From positions 1-35,800 of the forward strand of contig JAQBYI010000032.1 in assembly GCA_027622655.1 (NCBI GenBank): 35,800 nt of DNA. The letters are read 5' to 3'. Shown piece after piece: positions 24,349 to 32,579 of the stretch. A model generated the notes under the pieces. It was given only the letters and a program-made list of their open reading frames with translations, searched no databases and was not told the origin of the DNA. Source of the stretch: Gemmatimonadota bacterium (lineage in GTDB: Bacteria > Gemmatimonadota > Gemmatimonadetes > Gemmatimonadales > Gemmatimonadaceae). The stretch's first letter is position 1. Each line of letters begins with the position of its first letter. A program made the position numbers and the translations under genes.

Positions 24349-25527
24349 ATGCTCGAGCTGCTCACCAACGCGCAGGTCCATGCCCCGGAGCCACTTGGCG
24401 TCCGGCACCTGCTCATTGCCGGCGGCCGGATCGCCTGGATCGGCGAAGAGATTCCCGACCTTCCCGCATCACTCGGCGCCCGCACCCGCGACATCGAAGG
24501 CCGGCGGCTGATTCCCGGACTCATTGACGCGCACGTGCACCTCACCGGCGGCGGCGGCGAAGCGGGCGCGCACACCAAGGTCCCGCCGCTCGCGCTTTCG
24601 CGATTCACGCGCGGCGGCGTCACCAGCGTAGTCGCGCTCCTCGGCACCGACGACGCGACGCGCCACCCGCGCGAACTCGTCGCCGCCGTGCATGCGCTTC
24701 GAAACGAAGGACTCTCCGCCTGGTGCTACACGGCAGGCTACCACGTGCCACCCGTCACCATCACAGGATCTGTACGCGGCGATATCGCCGCTATCGAATG
24801 CATCATCGGCGTGAAGTCCGCGATCAGCGACCACCGATCGAGCCAGCCGACGCTCGACGAGTTGCTGCGAATCGCGAGCGAAGCGCACGTGGGCGGCGTG
24901 ATGACGGGAAAGGCAGGCGTACTTCACCTGCACGTCGGCGACGGAGCACGTGGGCTCGCACTCATTAGAGAGGCACTCGAACACGCCGAGCTCCCCGCGA
25001 GCGTGTTCAATCCCACGCACGTCAATCGCCGCAAGGCGCTCTTCGACGAAGCAATCGCGCTGGCCAAGCTCGGCTGCAACGTCGACATCACCGCGTTCCC
25101 GGTCGCCGACGGCGAAGACGCGTGGCCCGCTGAGACGGCACTCGTGCGCTACCTCGAGTCCGGCGCTCCGCCAGAACGCGTCACGATCAGCTCAGACGGC
25201 GGCGGTTGTCTCCCGGTGTTCGACGACGACGGACGCGTGGCCAGCATGGACGTCGGCGATCCGGGCGCACTCGCGCGAACACTCAGGGCGCTGCTCAGCG
25301 CGGGCCAGCCGCTCGAACGCGTGCTTCCAGCATTCACCTCAAACGTCGCGTGGCTGCTGCGCCTCCCACGAAAGGGGAGCATCGCCGCCGGCAATGACGC
25401 CGACCTCGTGGTACTCGACAACGATGGAGGAATCCGGGACGTGATGGCCAATGGAGTGTGGCACGCAATGAACGGCAACGTGACGGTGGCCGGCTCGTTC
25501 GAGACGATGCACTCGAGTACCGTTTGA
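24349..25527 (+). CDS. iadA: Isoaspartyl dipeptidase (beta-aspartyl peptidase)
   Basis: 392 residues, the normal length of IadA. The binuclear zinc amidohydrolase site is complete by eye: HVH in LIDAHVHLTGGGGEAG, the lysine that is carboxylated in studied IadA within GVKSAISDHRSS, His in KAGVLHLHVGDG, His and the substrate-binding Arg in NPTHVNRR, and the catalytic Asp in ISSDGGG. The enzyme cleaves beta-aspartyl dipeptides in the cytoplasm; there is no signal peptide. Because it is followed directly by cyanophycinase and cyanophycin synthetase genes, its natural substrate here is very likely beta-Asp-Arg, the cyanophycin dipeptide, releasing Asp and Arg. It begins the operon. Confidence 0.93.
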   Translation: MLELLTNAQVHAPEPLGVRHLLIAGGRIAWIGEEIPDLPASLGARTRDIEGRRLIPGLIDAHVHLTGGGGEAGAHTKVPPLALSRFTRGGVTSVVALLGTDDATRHPRELVAAVHALRNEGLSAWCYTAGYHVPPVTITGSVRGDIAAIECIIGVKSAISDHRSSQPTLDELLRIASEAHVGGVMTGKAGVLHLHVGDGARGLALIREALEHAELPASVFNPTHVNRRKALFDEAIALAKLGCNVDITAFPVADGEDAWPAETALVRYLESGAPPERVTISSDGGGCLPVFDDDGRVASMDVGDPGALARTLRALLSAGQPLERVLPAFTSNVAWLLRLPRKGSIAAGNDADLVVLDNDGGIRDVMANGVWHAMNGNVTVAGSFETMHSSTV

Positions 25528-26378
25528 GCCCGGCTCAAGTGCCCGACGGCGGGGAGCGCGGCTGGATCATTCCGATCGGCGGCGGCGAACCCAAGGATCA
25601 AGAACCGGTAATCCTGGAACGATTCGTCCAGCTATGCGGCGGACGCGACTCGAAGATCGCGATCATCCCCACCGCGTCGAAGCTCGAAGACACGGGCGAC
25701 CGCTACGAAAAGCTCTTCCGCGAGATCGGCGCCGGCGAAGCGGTCGTTCTTGATTTCGACACGCGGCGTGACGCGTACGAGAAGGGACGCCTTTCCGAAC
25801 TCACCGATTGTGATGGCGTCTTTCTCACCGGCGGCAATCAGCTCCGCCTCTCGACCACGATCGGCGGGACGGACGTGGCGCGTACGCTTCGCGAAATGAA
25901 CGCGCGCGGCGTGCACGTTTGCGGCACCAGCGCGGGCGCGAGCTTCCTCTCCGAACACATGATCGCGTTCGGCTCCGACAACGCCACCACGCACGCAGGC
26001 TCGGTCACGCTCGCGCCGGGGCTCGGCCTCACAAACCGCGTCGTCATCGACCAGCACTTCACGCAGCGCAATCGGCTCGGCCGCCTCATCACGGCGCTCG
26101 CGTTCAACCCCTTCCTGATCGGCCTCGGGCTCGACGAGGATACCGCGGCCTTCATCGGCCCCGACCAGACTGTCGAGGTGGAAGGAAGCGGCACGCTCAC
26201 GGTGGTGGACGCCGAGCACCTCAAATTTTCGTCCATGGCGCAGGCGGGGCCAAACGACCCCGTATCGGTGCTCGGGCTCAAGATGCACGTACTGATTCGC
26301 GGCGCGACGTTCAACCTGCATACGCGCCACGCGTCGGCCGGCATACTCGCGGCTGACCGCGCCGGGGGTGCAGCTTAG
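25524..26378 (+). CDS. cphB: Cyanophycinase, serine peptidase family S51
   Basis: About 284 residues if started at TTG 25524, which overlaps the iadA stop by 4 bases (TTGA); GTG 25539 is nearly as likely, and a GTG at 25458 would overlap iadA too far. The S51 nucleophile is in CGTSAGAS (the Ser codon is 25929-25931), the equivalent of the Ser in GTSAGA of known CphB; FLTGGNQLRL and the conserved GLGL and DQHFTQRNR segments also fit. No signal peptide, so it is the intracellular type. It hydrolyses cyanophycin to beta-Asp-Arg dipeptides by an exo mechanism. The cphA start follows its stop after 3 bases. Confidence 0.94.
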   Translation: MSPAQVPDGGERGWIIPIGGGEPKDQEPVILERFVQLCGGRDSKIAIIPTASKLEDTGDRYEKLFREIGAGEAVVLDFDTRRDAYEKGRLSELTDCDGVFLTGGNQLRLSTTIGGTDVARTLREMNARGVHVCGTSAGASFLSEHMIAFGSDNATTHAGSVTLAPGLGLTNRVVIDQHFTQRNRLGRLITALAFNPFLIGLGLDEDTAAFIGPDQTVEVEGSGTLTVVDAEHLKFSSMAQAGPNDPVSVLGLKMHVLIRGATFNLHTRHASAGILAADRAGGAA

Positions 26379-26381
26379 CGA

Positions 26382-29198
26382 ATGCGCATTGTCGATCGCT
26401 CGGTCTACGTCGGACCTTCGCTCTACGCCCACTTCCCGGTCATCCGGCTCGAAGTGGACCTGGGCGAACTCGAGGCGTGGCCAACAGCGCGACTCGGCGC
26501 CCCGTTCATTGATGCGCTGCTGACGACGCTCCCCGGACTCGCTGAGCATGGTTGCTCGTTCGGCGAACCGGGCGGATTCGTTCGCCGGCTCAAGGAAGAC
26601 GAAGGCACGTGGCTCGGTCATGTGCTCGAGCACATCGCGATCGAGTTGCAGAACGTCGCGGGCATCAAGGTGACGTTCGGCAAGACACGCGGCACCGGAA
26701 CGCCGGGCCACTACCACGTCGTCTACGAGTACGAGCAGCGCGACGAAGGACTCGCGGCGGGCACACTCGCGCTCGACCTGCTCGATTCGCTCCTCCCCGC
26801 CGCGCTCCGCTCCCCCCGCCCTGCGGTTGACGCCGCTGAGCCGTTCGACTTCGACACCGAACGCGATGCGTTCATTCGGTTCGCGCAGCGCAGGGCGCTC
26901 GGGCCGAGTACCGCGTCAATCATTCACGCCGCCGAGGCGCGGGGAATCCCGTGGCTGCGACTGAACAGCCATTCGCTCGTGCAGCTCGGGTACGGCAAGT
27001 ACCAGCAGCGCATCCAGGCAACGGTCACGAGTCGCACGTCGCACATCGCCGTTGAACTCGCCAGCGACAAGGAGGAGACGAACCATCTCCTCTCGACGCT
27101 CGGGCTTCCGGTGCCGAAGCAGGCGCTCGTTCAGAACGCAACTGACGCCTCGCGCGCAGCAAAGAAGATCGGTTATCCCGTGGTAGTGAAGCCGTACAAC
27201 GGCAATCACGGTCGCGCTGTGGCGATTCACCTCTCCTCGGACGAAGCGGTGCGCACGGCGTTTGCGGCAGCGCAGGAAGTCTCGCGCTCGGTGCTGGTGG
27301 AAAGCTTCGTCACGGGCGATGACCATCGTCTCCTCGTGGTGAACGGTACGCTCGTCGCCGCCACGCGGCGCACGCCGGGCCACGTCGTGGGCGATGGAAA
27401 ACACACCGTCGCCGAGTTGATCGCGATCGTGAACAGCGACCCGCGTCGCGGCATCGGCCACGAGAAGGTGCTTACGCGCCTCCAACTCGACGCGCAGGCC
27501 AAGCGGCTGCTCGACAAGCACGGGTACACGGAGGAAACCGTTCCCCCGGCCGGCGAGATCGTCTACCTGCGCTCGACCGCCAATCTTTCGACCGGCGGTA
27601 CGGCCACCGACGTCACGGACATCATCCATCCCGACAACGTCGATATGGCGGTGCGCGCGATCGAGGCGGTTGGGCTCGACGTCGGAGGCGTGGATTTTCT
27701 CACGACCGACATCACCCAGTCGTACAAGAAGCACGGCGGCGCGATCTGCGAAGTGAACGCCGCGCCCGGCTTCCGGATGCACAGCGCACCGAGCGAAGGA
27801 AAGGCGCGCGACGTCGCGACTCCCGTGATTGACATGCTGTTTCCGCCCGGCCAGCCAACTGTCGTCCCGATCGCGGCGGTGACCGGCACGAACGGCAAAA
27901 CGACCACCGCGCGTATGCTCGCCCACATCTGCAAGATGGGTGGCATGACGCCGGGCCTCACCACGACCGACGGTGTTTACATAGATGGGCAGAGCACGGT
28001 TGAAGGCGACATGACCGGTCCCGTCGCCACGCGCACCGTGCTCAGCGACCCCGCCATCGACGTGGCGGTCCTCGAGATCGCGCGCGGCGGACTGCTGCGC
28101 GCCGGAATGGGCACGCGCTATGTGGACGTCGGCGCGGTGCTCAACGTGCGCTCGGACCACCTTGGCATGCGCGGCGTTGACACACTCGAAGCACTGGCCG
28201 AGGTGAAGCGCGTGGTTGTCGAGGTGGCGCGCGACACAGCCGTGCTCAACGCCGACGATCCGCTCTGCCTCAAGATGGCGTCGTACACGGAGGCGAAGCA
28301 TCTCTGCTACGTGACCACTGATCCGGAGCACGCGCTCGTGCGCGAGCACATCCGCGCCGGCGGCCGCGCCGTCTCGCTCGAGAGCGGCGTCAACGGTGAG
28401 ATGATCACCATCTACGACAAGGGAGCGCACATTCCGCTCCTCTGGACGCACCTGATTCCCGCGACGATTGAAGGACGTGCACAGCACAACGTGGTGAACG
28501 CGATGTTCGCCGCGGCGATGGGTTTCTCGATGGGGCTCAAGCTCGAGGTCATCCGGCAGGGATTGAGCACGTTCGACACGACGTTCTTCCAGGCGCCGGG
28601 GAGGATGAACGTGTACACCAAACTGCCATTCAAGGTCATCCTCGACTACGGACACAACGCGCACGCCGTGGAGATGATGACCGAACTCTGCTCGCGGCTC
28701 GACGTCGCCGGACGGAGGATCGTGGTGCTTGCCGGGCCGGGCGATCGCCGCGACGAGGATCTGCGCGAGATTGCACACGCGACTGCGGGGCGATTCGACC
28801 ATTACATCTGCCGGCGCGACGACGGACTGCGCGGCCGCGACGGCGACGAAGTCCCCGCGATCATGTCGGCGGCGTTGCGGGCGTGCGGCGTGCCTGACTC
28901 GAGTATCTCGATCATTCCGAGCGAGGAAGCCGCGGTCGACGCCGCGTTGCACATGGCCGCCGCTGGTGACCTCGTGCTGGTCTTTGGCGACGCGATCACG
29001 CGCTGCTGGGAGCAGATCACAACGTTCCACCCGGACGGAATGGCGCGTACGGTAACGGCGGAGCACGCGATTCCAAACGGAGCTGCCCGCACGACCGCGA
29101 AGCCGCCCACTGCGGCGCGCGTGCCCCGTTCTCCGAAACTCGGCGCCCTCGTGCGCGACGACCGCGGCGTGCGCCTCGCCCGCGAGAGCGAAGACTGA
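26382..29198 (+). CDS. cphA: Cyanophycin synthetase
   Basis: 938 residues, slightly longer than typical CphA1. It has three parts: an N-terminal domain (about 1-160; VYVGPSLYAHFPVIRLEVDL, CSFGEPGGFVRRL, GHVLEHIAIELQ), an ATP-grasp domain (about 218-490; VVKPYNGNHGRAV, CEVNAAPGFRMH) and a Mur-ligase-like domain from about 495 with P-loop GTNGKTTT (502-509) and DYGHNAHAVEMM. The ATP-grasp site adds Asp to the polymer backbone and the Mur-like site adds Arg to the side chain. The N-domain keeps HxxEH (His80, Glu83, His84), which matches the primer-forming hydrolytic site reported in some CphA proteins. It starts with ATG 3 bases after cphB. Its C-terminal 40 or so residues are Pro/Arg-rich and not conserved in the family. 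Confidence 0.96.
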   Translation: MRIVDRSVYVGPSLYAHFPVIRLEVDLGELEAWPTARLGAPFIDALLTTLPGLAEHGCSFGEPGGFVRRLKEDEGTWLGHVLEHIAIELQNVAGIKVTFGKTRGTGTPGHYHVVYEYEQRDEGLAAGTLALDLLDSLLPAALRSPRPAVDAAEPFDFDTERDAFIRFAQRRALGPSTASIIHAAEARGIPWLRLNSHSLVQLGYGKYQQRIQATVTSRTSHIAVELASDKEETNHLLSTLGLPVPKQALVQNATDASRAAKKIGYPVVVKPYNGNHGRAVAIHLSSDEAVRTAFAAAQEVSRSVLVESFVTGDDHRLLVVNGTLVAATRRTPGHVVGDGKHTVAELIAIVNSDPRRGIGHEKVLTRLQLDAQAKRLLDKHGYTEETVPPAGEIVYLRSTANLSTGGTATDVTDIIHPDNVDMAVRAIEAVGLDVGGVDFLTTDITQSYKKHGGAICEVNAAPGFRMHSAPSEGKARDVATPVIDMLFPPGQPTVVPIAAVTGTNGKTTTARMLAHICKMGGMTPGLTTTDGVYIDGQSTVEGDMTGPVATRTVLSDPAIDVAVLEIARGGLLRAGMGTRYVDVGAVLNVRSDHLGMRGVDTLEALAEVKRVVVEVARDTAVLNADDPLCLKMASYTEAKHLCYVTTDPEHALVREHIRAGGRAVSLESGVNGEMITIYDKGAHIPLLWTHLIPATIEGRAQHNVVNAMFAAAMGFSMGLKLEVIRQGLSTFDTTFFQAPGRMNVYTKLPFKVILDYGHNAHAVEMMTELCSRLDVAGRRIVVLAGPGDRRDEDLREIAHATAGRFDHYICRRDDGLRGRDGDEVPAIMSAALRACGVPDSSISIIPSEEAAVDAALHMAAAGDLVLVFGDAITRCWEQITTFHPDGMARTVTAEHAIPNGAARTTAKPPTAARVPRSPKLGALVRDDRGVRLARESED

Positions 29199-29206
29199 CG
29201 GGTTTT

Positions 29207-30955
29207 GTGCCCCACGACGTAACGGCTCTGCTCTTCGAGGATTCGCGGCGCCTCACCGGACCGAACTTCTGGCTCGGCGAACGCGGCGTGATTCTCGATG
29301 CGGCGCTGCATAGCGAACGCGCCACCGCGGAGATCGCGGCGTGGCGTGATCGCGTCGCTGAACTCACTGGCCCGTTCGGCTGGCGCACTGAGATCGCCGT
29401 GCGTCGCGACGGATCGCGCGCGGTGCTCGCCTTCACCGCGCCACTCGATGCGCTCTACACCGCGACACTCATCAATGAGTGGGCCTGGACACTAGCCGCG
29501 ACTGATGGAATAGCGCGAGCGGCGGCGATGCCACCGCCCGATGACGAGCCGCTGCCCGTGGAGTTGCCGCAGGCACTCGAGCGCCTGCATCTGCTGCTCG
29601 CCGCCGAAGCGAATCCCGCGCTCGTTGCGATGGCGGAGCGCGCGGCGCGCGAGAACGTGCCGTTTCTCTCCGACGACGAACTCGTCACAGTCGGTTACGG
29701 TGCGCGAAGCGAGACGTGGCCGGCACGCGCAGTGCCCTCTCCGGACGCCGTAGAGTGGAAAGCACGCGAAACCATACCTGTGGCGTTGGTCACCGGATCG
29801 AACGGCAAGACGACGACCACGCGGCTTGTGGCTGCGATGCTGGCGAAGGCCGGTCACACCGTGGGCTTCTGCTGCAGCGATGGAGTGTTCGTCGCCGGCG
29901 AGCAGATCGAAAGCGGCGACTGGAGCGGCCCCGGCGGAGCGCGTCTCGTGCTGCGCAACACTCGCGTGACCGCCGCCGTGCTCGAGACCGCACGCGGCGG
30001 CCTGCTGCGTCGTGGACTCGCCGTGCCGTACGCCAGCGCGGCGATTGTCACGAACATCGCCGAAGATCACTTCGGCGGGTACGGCATTCGATCGCTCGCC
30101 GATCTGGCAGCGGTGAAACTCTGCGCTGCGAACGCGCTCGCGAGCAGCGGCACACTCGTCCTGAACAGCGACGACGAAACGCTGCGGATGGTGGCCCGGA
30201 ACGACGATGAAGCGGGTGGCGGTGTTATCGACAGCGCGACCTCGCGGCGCGAAGCGCGCACAGTCCGCGATCACGCCGGTCACGTGAACAACATCGAGTG
30301 GTTCAGCGCCGGCAAGCTCCCGGACTGGATGCCGCTTGTGAGCGAGATGCCCATCACCCGCGGCGGGGCCGCGGCGTACAACGTGGCGAACGCCATCGGC
30401 GCAGCGCACGTGGCCCGCGCGCTTGGAGTCGCCTCCACGGCAATCGAGATGACGCTGCGAGAGTTCGGCACAGACAACGCCGATAATCCCGGCCGTCTCG
30501 AACGATTCGACGTGAAAGGCGTTCAGGTGTGGATCGACTACGCGCACAACCCACACGGACTAGCCGCGCTGCTCACGGCCGCACGCGCCGAAAAGGGTGC
30601 AGCCCGCATGGGATTGCTGCTCGGCCAGGCCGGCGACCGCGATGATGACGCAATTCGCGCGCTGGCCCGCACTGCGTGGGACGCGCGGCCGGAGCGGATT
30701 GTGCTCAAAGACCTCGACGGCTACTCCCGCGGCCGCGCCCCTGGTGAAGTTCCCGCACTTCTTCGCAATGAACTGCTCATCGCCGGCGCGCCCGCTGACA
30801 CGCTGGAAATAGTTCCGGACGAGGTCGCTGGTGTGCGCGCGCTCATTGACTGGTCACGGGCCGGCGACCTGCTGGTGCTCCCAGTACACGCACTCGAAGC
30901 GCGCGCAGCCACCATCGCGTTGATCGACAGGCTCGGCGGCGCAGTGCAATCTTAG
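29207..30955 (+). CDS. CphA-related Mur-ligase protein lacking the ATP-grasp domain
   Basis: 582 residues from GTG 29207, 8 bases after cphA. The C-terminal two thirds are a Mur ligase related to the cphA product: P-loop GSNGKTTTT (197-205), the CSDGVFVAGEQIESGDWSGP region, ARGGLLRRGL, TNIAEDHFG and DYAHNPHGLAAL, each with a close counterpart in CphA. Before it are a weak copy of the CphA N-domain (LTGPNFWLGERGVILDAAL; LINEWAWTL where CphA has VLEHIAIEL) and the linker phrase VPFLSDDELVTVGYG, matching IPWLRLNSHSLVQLGYG. The whole ATP-grasp domain, about 280 residues, is absent, as is HxxEH. It probably forms isopeptide or amide bonds on a cyanophycin-related substrate; the precise reaction is unknown. 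Confidence 0.85.
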   Translation: MPHDVTALLFEDSRRLTGPNFWLGERGVILDAALHSERATAEIAAWRDRVAELTGPFGWRTEIAVRRDGSRAVLAFTAPLDALYTATLINEWAWTLAATDGIARAAAMPPPDDEPLPVELPQALERLHLLLAAEANPALVAMAERAARENVPFLSDDELVTVGYGARSETWPARAVPSPDAVEWKARETIPVALVTGSNGKTTTTRLVAAMLAKAGHTVGFCCSDGVFVAGEQIESGDWSGPGGARLVLRNTRVTAAVLETARGGLLRRGLAVPYASAAIVTNIAEDHFGGYGIRSLADLAAVKLCAANALASSGTLVLNSDDETLRMVARNDDEAGGGVIDSATSRREARTVRDHAGHVNNIEWFSAGKLPDWMPLVSEMPITRGGAAAYNVANAIGAAHVARALGVASTAIEMTLREFGTDNADNPGRLERFDVKGVQVWIDYAHNPHGLAALLTAARAEKGAARMGLLLGQAGDRDDDAIRALARTAWDARPERIVLKDLDGYSRGRAPGEVPALLRNELLIAGAPADTLEIVPDEVAGVRALIDWSRAGDLLVLPVHALEARAATIALIDRLGGAVQS

Positions 30956-30995: not shown

Positions 30996-32579
30996 ATGCA
31001 ACTCTCAATCGTCCATTCATTGTGCACCGCCCTCGCCGGCGCCACGCTCTCAGTCGCATCGCTTTCTGCGCAGCAAGTCCGGTCCGGCTTCGCCGACCCT
31101 GCCCGCGCCGCAAAACTCCAGGCCGCCGCGCCCGCCATCGACCGCATCATGCGCGACTTCGCCACGAGCCAGCACATTCCGGGCGCCGCGTGGGGAATCA
31201 TTGTCGACGGAAAACTCGCTCACATCGGCGTCACGGGCCTGCGCGACATCGCGGCCAGGTCGCCAGTCGATTCCAACACGGTGTTCCGCATCGCGTCCAT
31301 GACCAAGAGCTTCACGGCGATGGCGATTCTCAAGTTGCGAGACGACGGCAAGCTCTCACTCGATGACCCGGCGGAGCGCTACGTACCAGAGCTCGCCGGT
31401 CTCGAGTATCCGACGAGCGACTCGCCGCGGCTCACGATTCGCCATCTCATGTCGCACTCGACCGGATTTCCGGAAGACAATCCGTGGGGCGATCAGCAGC
31501 TCGCGCGAAGCGACGCCGAACTCTCAAAGATGATCACGGACGGCATTCCGTTCTCGAACCCGCCCGGCGTCGCGTACGAATACTCCAACTACGGTTTCGC
31601 AATACTCGGCCGCATCGTCACGCGCGCTTCCGGCATGCCATACAAGGACTACGTGGCGGCCAATATTTTCCGTCCGCTCGGCATGCGTTCCACAACGCTC
31701 TCGCCCGGCGCCGTGCCCGCGAACCAACTCGCGCACGGCTACCGCTGGGAAGACGAACAGTGGAAGGAAGAAGAACAACTTCCCGACGGCGCTTTCGGTT
31801 CAATGGGCGGCATGCTCACGTCGCTCAGCGACCTCGGCACGTACGTCTCGACATTCCTGGCCGCGTGGCCACCACGCGACGGAACAGAGACCGGACCTGT
31901 GAAGCGCTCATCGTTGCGTGAAATGCAACAGGTATCCCGCCCCGGAGCATCGTCCGCGCGACGCACCGCGAACGGCATGCTCGCGCTCATCAGTGGCGGC
32001 TACGGTTACGGACTCCGCATTTCCACCAACTGTCTGTTCGAACACGTCGTTGCGCACAGCGGCGGGCTTCCGGGATTCGGATCGCAGATGCGCTGGCTCC
32101 CCGAGTACGGAGTAGGCATCATCACGTTCGGTAATCGCACGTACACGGGATGGGGTGCGCCGATTGATGCGGCGTTCGCCGCGCTCGCTGCCACCGGTGC
32201 GCTTCAGCCGCGGATGCCTGAGCCATCGGCCGCGCTCGTCGAGGCGCGCGCGCAAGTCACACGGCTCGTGCTGAACTGGGACGACCAGCTCGCGAAGTCC
32301 ATCGCGGCGGACAATCTCTTTCTCGACCGGTCCATTGACCGTCGCAGCGCCGAGTTTGCTGCGCAGCGTGCGCGCGTCGGAGCATGTTCAGCCGGCAGCG
32401 GATTCGCCTACGTGGAGAACGCGCTGCGTGGACAATGGATCGTGCCGTGCGAACGTGGCAATCTGCTTCTGTCCATAACGCTTGCACCGACCGCAACACC
32501 GACGGTGCAATACATGGAAGTCAGGGCCGCGCCGGCGTCGGGCGTAGTCACGCGACCGCCGCTCTGCTCGGGTACGTAA
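30996..32579 (+). CDS. Exported serine hydrolase, beta-lactamase/D-alanyl-D-alanine peptidase family
   Basis: 527 residues with a signal peptide ending at ASLSAQ. The class C/penicillin-recognising fold is shown by SxxK (Ser101-MT-Lys104), YSN (196-198) and a late HSGG motif in VVAHSGGLPGFGSQM, with LTIRHLMSHSTGFPEDNPW in between. A C-terminal region of about 130 residues (from RMPEPSAALVEARAQVTRL) is an extra domain seen in many of these multi-domain esterase/peptidase-like proteins. Substrates in this family range from peptidoglycan stem peptides to esters, so the role is open. It follows the cyanophycin operon after 40 bases on the same strand and could be co-transcribed, although its product is exported and the others are not. 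Confidence 0.88.
   Translation: MQLSIVHSLCTALAGATLSVASLSAQQVRSGFADPARAAKLQAAAPAIDRIMRDFATSQHIPGAAWGIIVDGKLAHIGVTGLRDIAARSPVDSNTVFRIASMTKSFTAMAILKLRDDGKLSLDDPAERYVPELAGLEYPTSDSPRLTIRHLMSHSTGFPEDNPWGDQQLARSDAELSKMITDGIPFSNPPGVAYEYSNYGFAILGRIVTRASGMPYKDYVAANIFRPLGMRSTTLSPGAVPANQLAHGYRWEDEQWKEEEQLPDGAFGSMGGMLTSLSDLGTYVSTFLAAWPPRDGTETGPVKRSSLREMQQVSRPGASSARRTANGMLALISGGYGYGLRISTNCLFEHVVAHSGGLPGFGSQMRWLPEYGVGIITFGNRTYTGWGAPIDAAFAALAATGALQPRMPEPSAALVEARAQVTRLVLNWDDQLAKSIAADNLFLDRSIDRRSAEFAAQRARVGACSAGSGFAYVENALRGQWIVPCERGNLLLSITLAPTATPTVQYMEVRAAPASGVVTRPPLCSGT

Follow-up and report, generated by a model that had tools for sequence, protein, structure and literature searches.

A CphA-type Mur ligase without an ATP-grasp domain as the putative partner of cyanophycin synthetases ending in an invariant aspartate

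The window, a contig of 35,800 nucleotides, carries four plus-strand genes that form a cassette for cyanophycin, a polymer in which bacteria store nitrogen: iadA, cphB, cphA and a gene whose product we call MurS. The isoaspartyl dipeptidase IadA (24349..25527; TIGR01975) is followed by the cyanophycinase CphB (TIGR02069), whose longest open reading frame spans 25458..26378 and whose true start probably lies near 25524, since its relatives align from about residue 23. The next gene encodes an intact CphA with N, G and M domains and a C-terminal extension (26382..29198; TIGR02068 and Pfam), which matches TIGR02068 in full and scores 1116 bits (cut-off 850). The MurS reading frame (29207..30955) opens with GTG 8 nt past the CphA stop and encodes 582 amino acids; profile searches, an AF2 model, structural superposition and a tree identify the product as a CphA-type N-M ligase without the ATP-grasp domain. 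Immediately 3' of it, at 30996-32579, lies a gene for a serine hydrolase of the beta-lactamase fold (PF00144), which is not kept in related cassettes.

In profile searches, residues 186-569 of MurS align to positions 475-857 of TIGR02068 (E 6e-92), a match far above that to every Mur ligase model, and Pfam recognizes Mur_ligase_M and Mur_ligase_C; a TIGRFAM/Pfam-type search of all 582 residues gave no match to an ATP-grasp domain. By BLASTP, MurS is 33% identical to the neighbouring CphA over 381 residues, in the Mur part only, and its N-terminal 190 residues have no Pfam match. The faint likeness of this N-terminal part to the N domain of CphA, suspected in a sequence-only reading of the locus, is nonetheless real: when profiles built from 46 N-termini of MurS and 119 of CphA were compared, the probability was 94% (E 1e-7), with the match spanning the N domain and the 'GYG' segment and with the GPN motif and GYG collinear. 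Predicted alone, as that reading had recommended, MurS adopts a CphA-like fold (pLDDT 90, pTM 0.91), and the model superposes on TeCphA1 (7wae_A) from residue 8 to residue 577, with 517 residues aligned at an rmsd of 2.7 A and a Z of 33.4, whereas the top non-CphA chain scores only Z 24.4.

Residues 8-107 (29228..29527) form a CphA-type N domain in which the GPN motif is present and the HxxEH peptidase helix is absent, as judged by profile comparison, the TeCphA1 superposition and alignment. The segment that follows had been described as a linker shared with CphA; the profile alignment bears out the sharing, but because GshAB-type ATP-grasp models begin at about residue 170 of CphA, the 'linker' is in fact the first piece of the G domain. 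Consequently, MurS has lost about 280 G-domain residues, in agreement with the extent of the loss first proposed, and a stub of about 50 residues is left (residues 120-168, 29564..29710, with GYG at its end). The Mur ligase domain (residues 189-577, 29771..30937) is intact by residue check and alignment, with P-loop K201, E260, D287-H288, K304, R430, H447-N448, R478 and R508 all present; the intact P-loop had been noticed at the outset, and K201, E260, D287, H288, K304, R430, H447, R478 and R508 proved to be conserved in 48 of 48 MurS M domains. Residues important in CphA, namely K499, T500, T522 and E558 of TeCphA1 and D585 and H586 of SuCphA1 (PMC9427784, PMC9262961), correspond to K201, T202, S224, E260, D287 and H288 of MurS and are maintained. 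In the predicted model, the groove-forming N and M parts are arranged as in CphA. Judged by its sequence and model, MurS is a CphA relative that retains only the side-chain-attaching half.

When 76 Mur domains were placed in a tree (IQ-TREE, C20 mixture), the CphA-type ones, including that of MurS, separated from MurE at 100/100. MurS is monophyletic (99/96), and its sister is an actinobacterial Mur-only group (99/93). The original proposal that a duplicated cphA lost its polymerase half holds as regards descent from a CphA-type enzyme and retention of the side-chain ligase, but not as regards the neighbouring gene: the tree does not pair MurS with the neighbouring CphA, and constraining MurS together with the neighbours' CphA was rejected (AU p 0.0023), so that a recent duplication of the adjacent cphA is excluded. 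A G domain ancestrally absent from MurS is disfavoured by the G stub. As far as can be read from the sequences, MurS is an ancient, deep clade derived from a CphA-type enzyme by ATP-grasp loss.

A single origin of all Mur-only CphA relatives was also rejected (AU p 1e-92). Mur-only proteins from L116 (Duganella), L237 (an alphaproteobacterium) and L157 (Legionella adelaidensis) each branch together with a full CphA, the support being at least 100/98, and ATP-grasp has therefore been lost at least four times. The Duganella gene (L116:7310-9376, minus strand) adjoins its full CphA, has a longer G remnant and looks intermediate; the alphaproteobacterial gene (L237:1426-3372, minus strand), another independent loss, has a full CphA in the same genome. 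The plasmid-borne gene of L. adelaidensis (L157:4518-6386) encodes an N-M CphA relative that has a G stub and whose N domain retains an intact HxxEH, and it adjoins a cyanophycinase and an isoaspartyl peptidase; no cphA was found near it in the stretch examined, nor a second match on the plasmid. Among the actinobacterial Mur-only relatives (L092, L093, L107 and L238-L260), some are fused to TPR repeats, and wherever the examined piece includes cphA as well, the two genes are arranged tail to tail.

MurS occurs in Gemmatimonadota, Acidobacteriota, Pseudomonadota and Myxococcota. It was detected in 55 of 395 genomes of the window's phylum (E 1e-120), in 8 of 369 gammaproteobacterial, about 8 of 247 Acidobacteriota and 3 of 289 alphaproteobacterial genomes, as well as on Shinella and Ruegeria plasmids and in Plesiocystis; the plasmid-borne relatives are annotated by NCBI merely as 'Mur ligase family protein'. 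None of the other genomes listed for the window's own genus (at least 13) has MurS, and the cassette is thus patchy. In all loci where the contig reaches far enough, the gene directly upstream of MurS on the same strand encodes a CphA of one clade, mostly at a spacing of less than 100 nt. The exceptions are contig ends (G051, G194, G668, G1387 and G1391) and one broken, cphA-less copy in G186 (L070, 6389-7712), which suggests that MurS decays after cphA loss. Juxtaposition with cphA, seen at first in a single locus, is therefore constant wherever the survey could assess it. The trees of MurS and its partner CphA correlate (r 0.76, 0/2000 permutations). No conserved neighbours beyond IadA, CphB and CphA that might give a clue to the substrate were found in related cassettes. 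Other members of the phylum (L062, L065-L069 and L071) have no MurS, and their CphA is a different one with about 43% identity to that of the window; in most of them cphA is adjoined by a gene for a protein of 290-380 aa whose only CphA part is the N domain (for example, L067:9372-10472 and L065:6847-7722). Of these proteins, the three tested match PF18921 with E values from 1e-33 to 1e-36; HxxEH is intact in that of L065, and the C-terminal part belongs to no Pfam family. They are possibly stand-alone primer-making peptidases.

The CphA proteins adjacent to MurS share a conserved C-terminal tail, VRDERGVRLARE..., whose final residue is always Asp (75/75); in the window, this tail (VRDDRGVRLARESED, 29151..29195, plus strand, from sequence comparison) has Asp last before the stop. 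The count comprises 47 of 47 distinct proteins sampled first and then 28 of 28 from previously unused genomes, excluding a CphA-like reading frame on the other strand of L309 that is not MurS-adjacent. A variable linker is followed by [LIVF][VI]RDERGVRLAR, a few residues and the terminal Asp, which lies 8-12 residues from the motif glycine. The residue preceding this Asp is not fixed (A, D, E, N, G or S), and in the seven residues before the terminal Asp, D accounts for 10% and E for 21%. The Asp codon is GAC or GAT, and all three stops follow it; together with the variable spacing to MurS, this contradicts a DNA-level cause of the terminal Asp.

The VRDDRGVRLARESED type of tail is confined to the CphA clade bearing MurS, and the motif is absent from the CphAs of genomes without MurS. 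Only 4 of 142 CphA-type reading frames without a Mur-only neighbour end in Asp, and the sole true motif carrier among them, L072, comes from a genome that has MurS at a contig edge. The motif was not found in L101, the nearest CphA outside the clade, nor on proteins other than CphA in the 8 genomes searched. Because the tailed CphAs form one clade, the association of tail and MurS represents one event rather than many independent co-gains, and more weight attaches to the fact that the last residue never changes. In Actinobacteria, the CphAs with a Mur-only neighbour bear a different tail, ..DPD[LYF].. (18/18), which is missing from 7 actinobacterial CphAs without such a neighbour; this motif is not C-terminal and fits docking better than a role as acceptor. 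A fold of the read-through fusion, for which the alignment left out one plasmid-derived locus, showed no docking of the tail on MurS, with a tail pLDDT of 35-45 under a shallow alignment and a forced covalent link.

In CphA, the chain lies between the N domain and Mcore, and the Mur domain joins Arg to its C-terminal Asp at the beta-carboxylate (PMC9427784). Because a C-terminal Asp is what CphA-type Mur domains use and MurS has kept both the N and the Mur parts, the invariant Asp is plausibly a substrate or a mimic of one. On the strength of its predicted structure and conserved residues, MurS is probably a working Mur-type amino-acid ligase, an ancient derivative of CphA without ATP-grasp that serves as the dedicated partner of one CphA clade. 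The tailed CphAs possess all of their own sites, so that no loss explains their need for MurS. We favour the idea that MurS, using ATP, would activate the beta-carboxylate of a C-terminal Asp, on the tail or on the polymer, and then couple an amino acid to it. If the acceptor is the Asp end of growing cyanophycin, the tail would keep MurS close. If it is the invariant Asp of the CphA tail, the polymer would be anchored and primed on the synthetase itself, the G and M sites of CphA would extend it, and the HxxEH site of the CphA N domain could cut anchored chains free. HxxEH is present in 47 of 47 tailed CphAs versus 83 of 114 others (about 80% of CphA1s, not universal), and its retention in all tailed CphAs fits a need for chain release. 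In protein-primed polymerase systems, which are glycogenin-like in function, the polymer is covalently begun on the enzyme; here, the feature observed is the invariant C-terminal Asp of the partner CphA. We advance only tentatively, as an attractive if rather unlikely proposal drawn from sequence patterns, that cyanophycin synthesis in these bacteria is protein-primed, with MurS coupling an initial amino acid to the side chain of the tail's C-terminal Asp and HxxEH later releasing the polymer.

An alternative is that MurS adds a second, non-Arg amino acid to finished or growing cyanophycin, giving mixed side chains, and that the CphA tail serves for docking only. The lid of the Mur domain is relevant here. 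A D or E occupies the lid-acid position in 128 of 141 CphAs (91%) and never in 73 MurS and actinobacterial Mur-only proteins (H 59, L 8, Q 6); in the window's MurS, the residue is H561. The catalytic residues are kept in MurS, as is the lid R508, which we take by homology to be the MurE Arg that grips the incoming carboxylate. By analogy with MurE, the lid difference indicates that the amino acid added by MurS may differ from Arg. An acidic lid segment before RGR was discarded as a simple marker of Arg specificity, some CphAs lacking the segment, and only the D/E-to-H site is used, weakly, as a clue. Docking-type tails in two partner clades would also suit decoration of the polymer. Docking alone, however, does not explain a constant terminal Asp when the spacing between it and the motif shifts over a range of 4 residues and E outnumbers D two to one in its vicinity, and no amino-acid-metabolism gene is conserved next to the cassette. 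We consider polymer decoration possible, if on balance unlikely.

MurS might instead be a non-catalytic or regulatory subunit that enters the CphA tetramer via the tail and tunes assembly or processivity. The obligate pairing and the conserved tail would be expected of such a subunit, as would the evolution of MurS at about 2.6 times the rate of CphA; the invariant Mur catalytic residues, in contrast, would be needless in a structural subunit, and the tetramer of CphA has Mcore packed against three Gcore modules (PMC9427784), whereas MurS has no G domain. This renders a purely structural role improbable. The idea of an ordinary Mur ligase of peptidoglycan or folate synthesis that sits here by chance, as the Mur_ligase_M and Mur_ligase_C domains of MurS might suggest, is refuted, to the point of a negligible probability, by the 100/100 split from MurE, the general linkage to cphA and the five further Mur-family genes elsewhere in the source genome, which also make it unlikely that MurS replaces a missing peptidoglycan ligase.

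Comparison with known systems places MurS, a predicted ligase acting on a C-terminal Asp, as a variant within the CphA family and not as a new kind of enzyme. With CphA1 (TIGR02068; SuCphA1 and TeCphA1) it shares the N domain (a PF18921-type fold), the start of the G domain, a CphA-type Mur domain with intact catalytic residues and a cluster with cphB and iadA; unlike CphA1, it has no ATP-grasp polymerase domain, no HxxEH endo-cyanophycinase site (the segment is absent from the alignment) and an altered lid pocket, and it cannot extend the backbone. The cyanobacterial CphA2 is likewise a reduced CphA1 relative with one working ligase site, with which it repolymerises beta-Asp-Arg. CphA2 retains the ATP-grasp half, its second site being lost, and MurS, in which the G domain is absent and the Mur site intact, retains the opposite half. 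In Burkholderiales, a partial CphA paralogue of about 730 aa, cphA', adjoins cphA on its upstream side (L079:2401-4593 and similar loci); it has the N domain, the G domain and the Mur core and lacks the Mur lid, and is thus the mirror image of MurS. MurE resembles MurS in its Mur ligase core and lid, the carbamylated-Lys position and the ATP site, and differs in its N-terminal domain as well as in the tree; MurS scores lower against the MurC-F and FolC models and does not group with these families, the tree itself covering MurE only.

The literature searched, with most subscription journals outside its scope, held no description of a Mur-only CphA relative or of a primed start; the conserved pairing suggests that MurS and the tailed CphA constitute an unrecognised two-enzyme system. 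To our knowledge, the primers that CphA1 makes for itself are the sole answer to the old question of how the first cyanophycin chain is started. A few chains arise slowly from CphA1 itself, which then cleaves them into primers (PMC9262961). A conserved partner ligase together with an invariant terminal Asp on CphA would offer a second, directly testable route of initiation, and protein priming, if shown, would be new. More broadly, CphA has been split into half-enzymes more than once, and many genes annotated merely as 'Mur ligase family protein' belong to cyanophycin metabolism. Such enzymes may also provide a tool for producing polymers that have new side chains or are anchored to protein.
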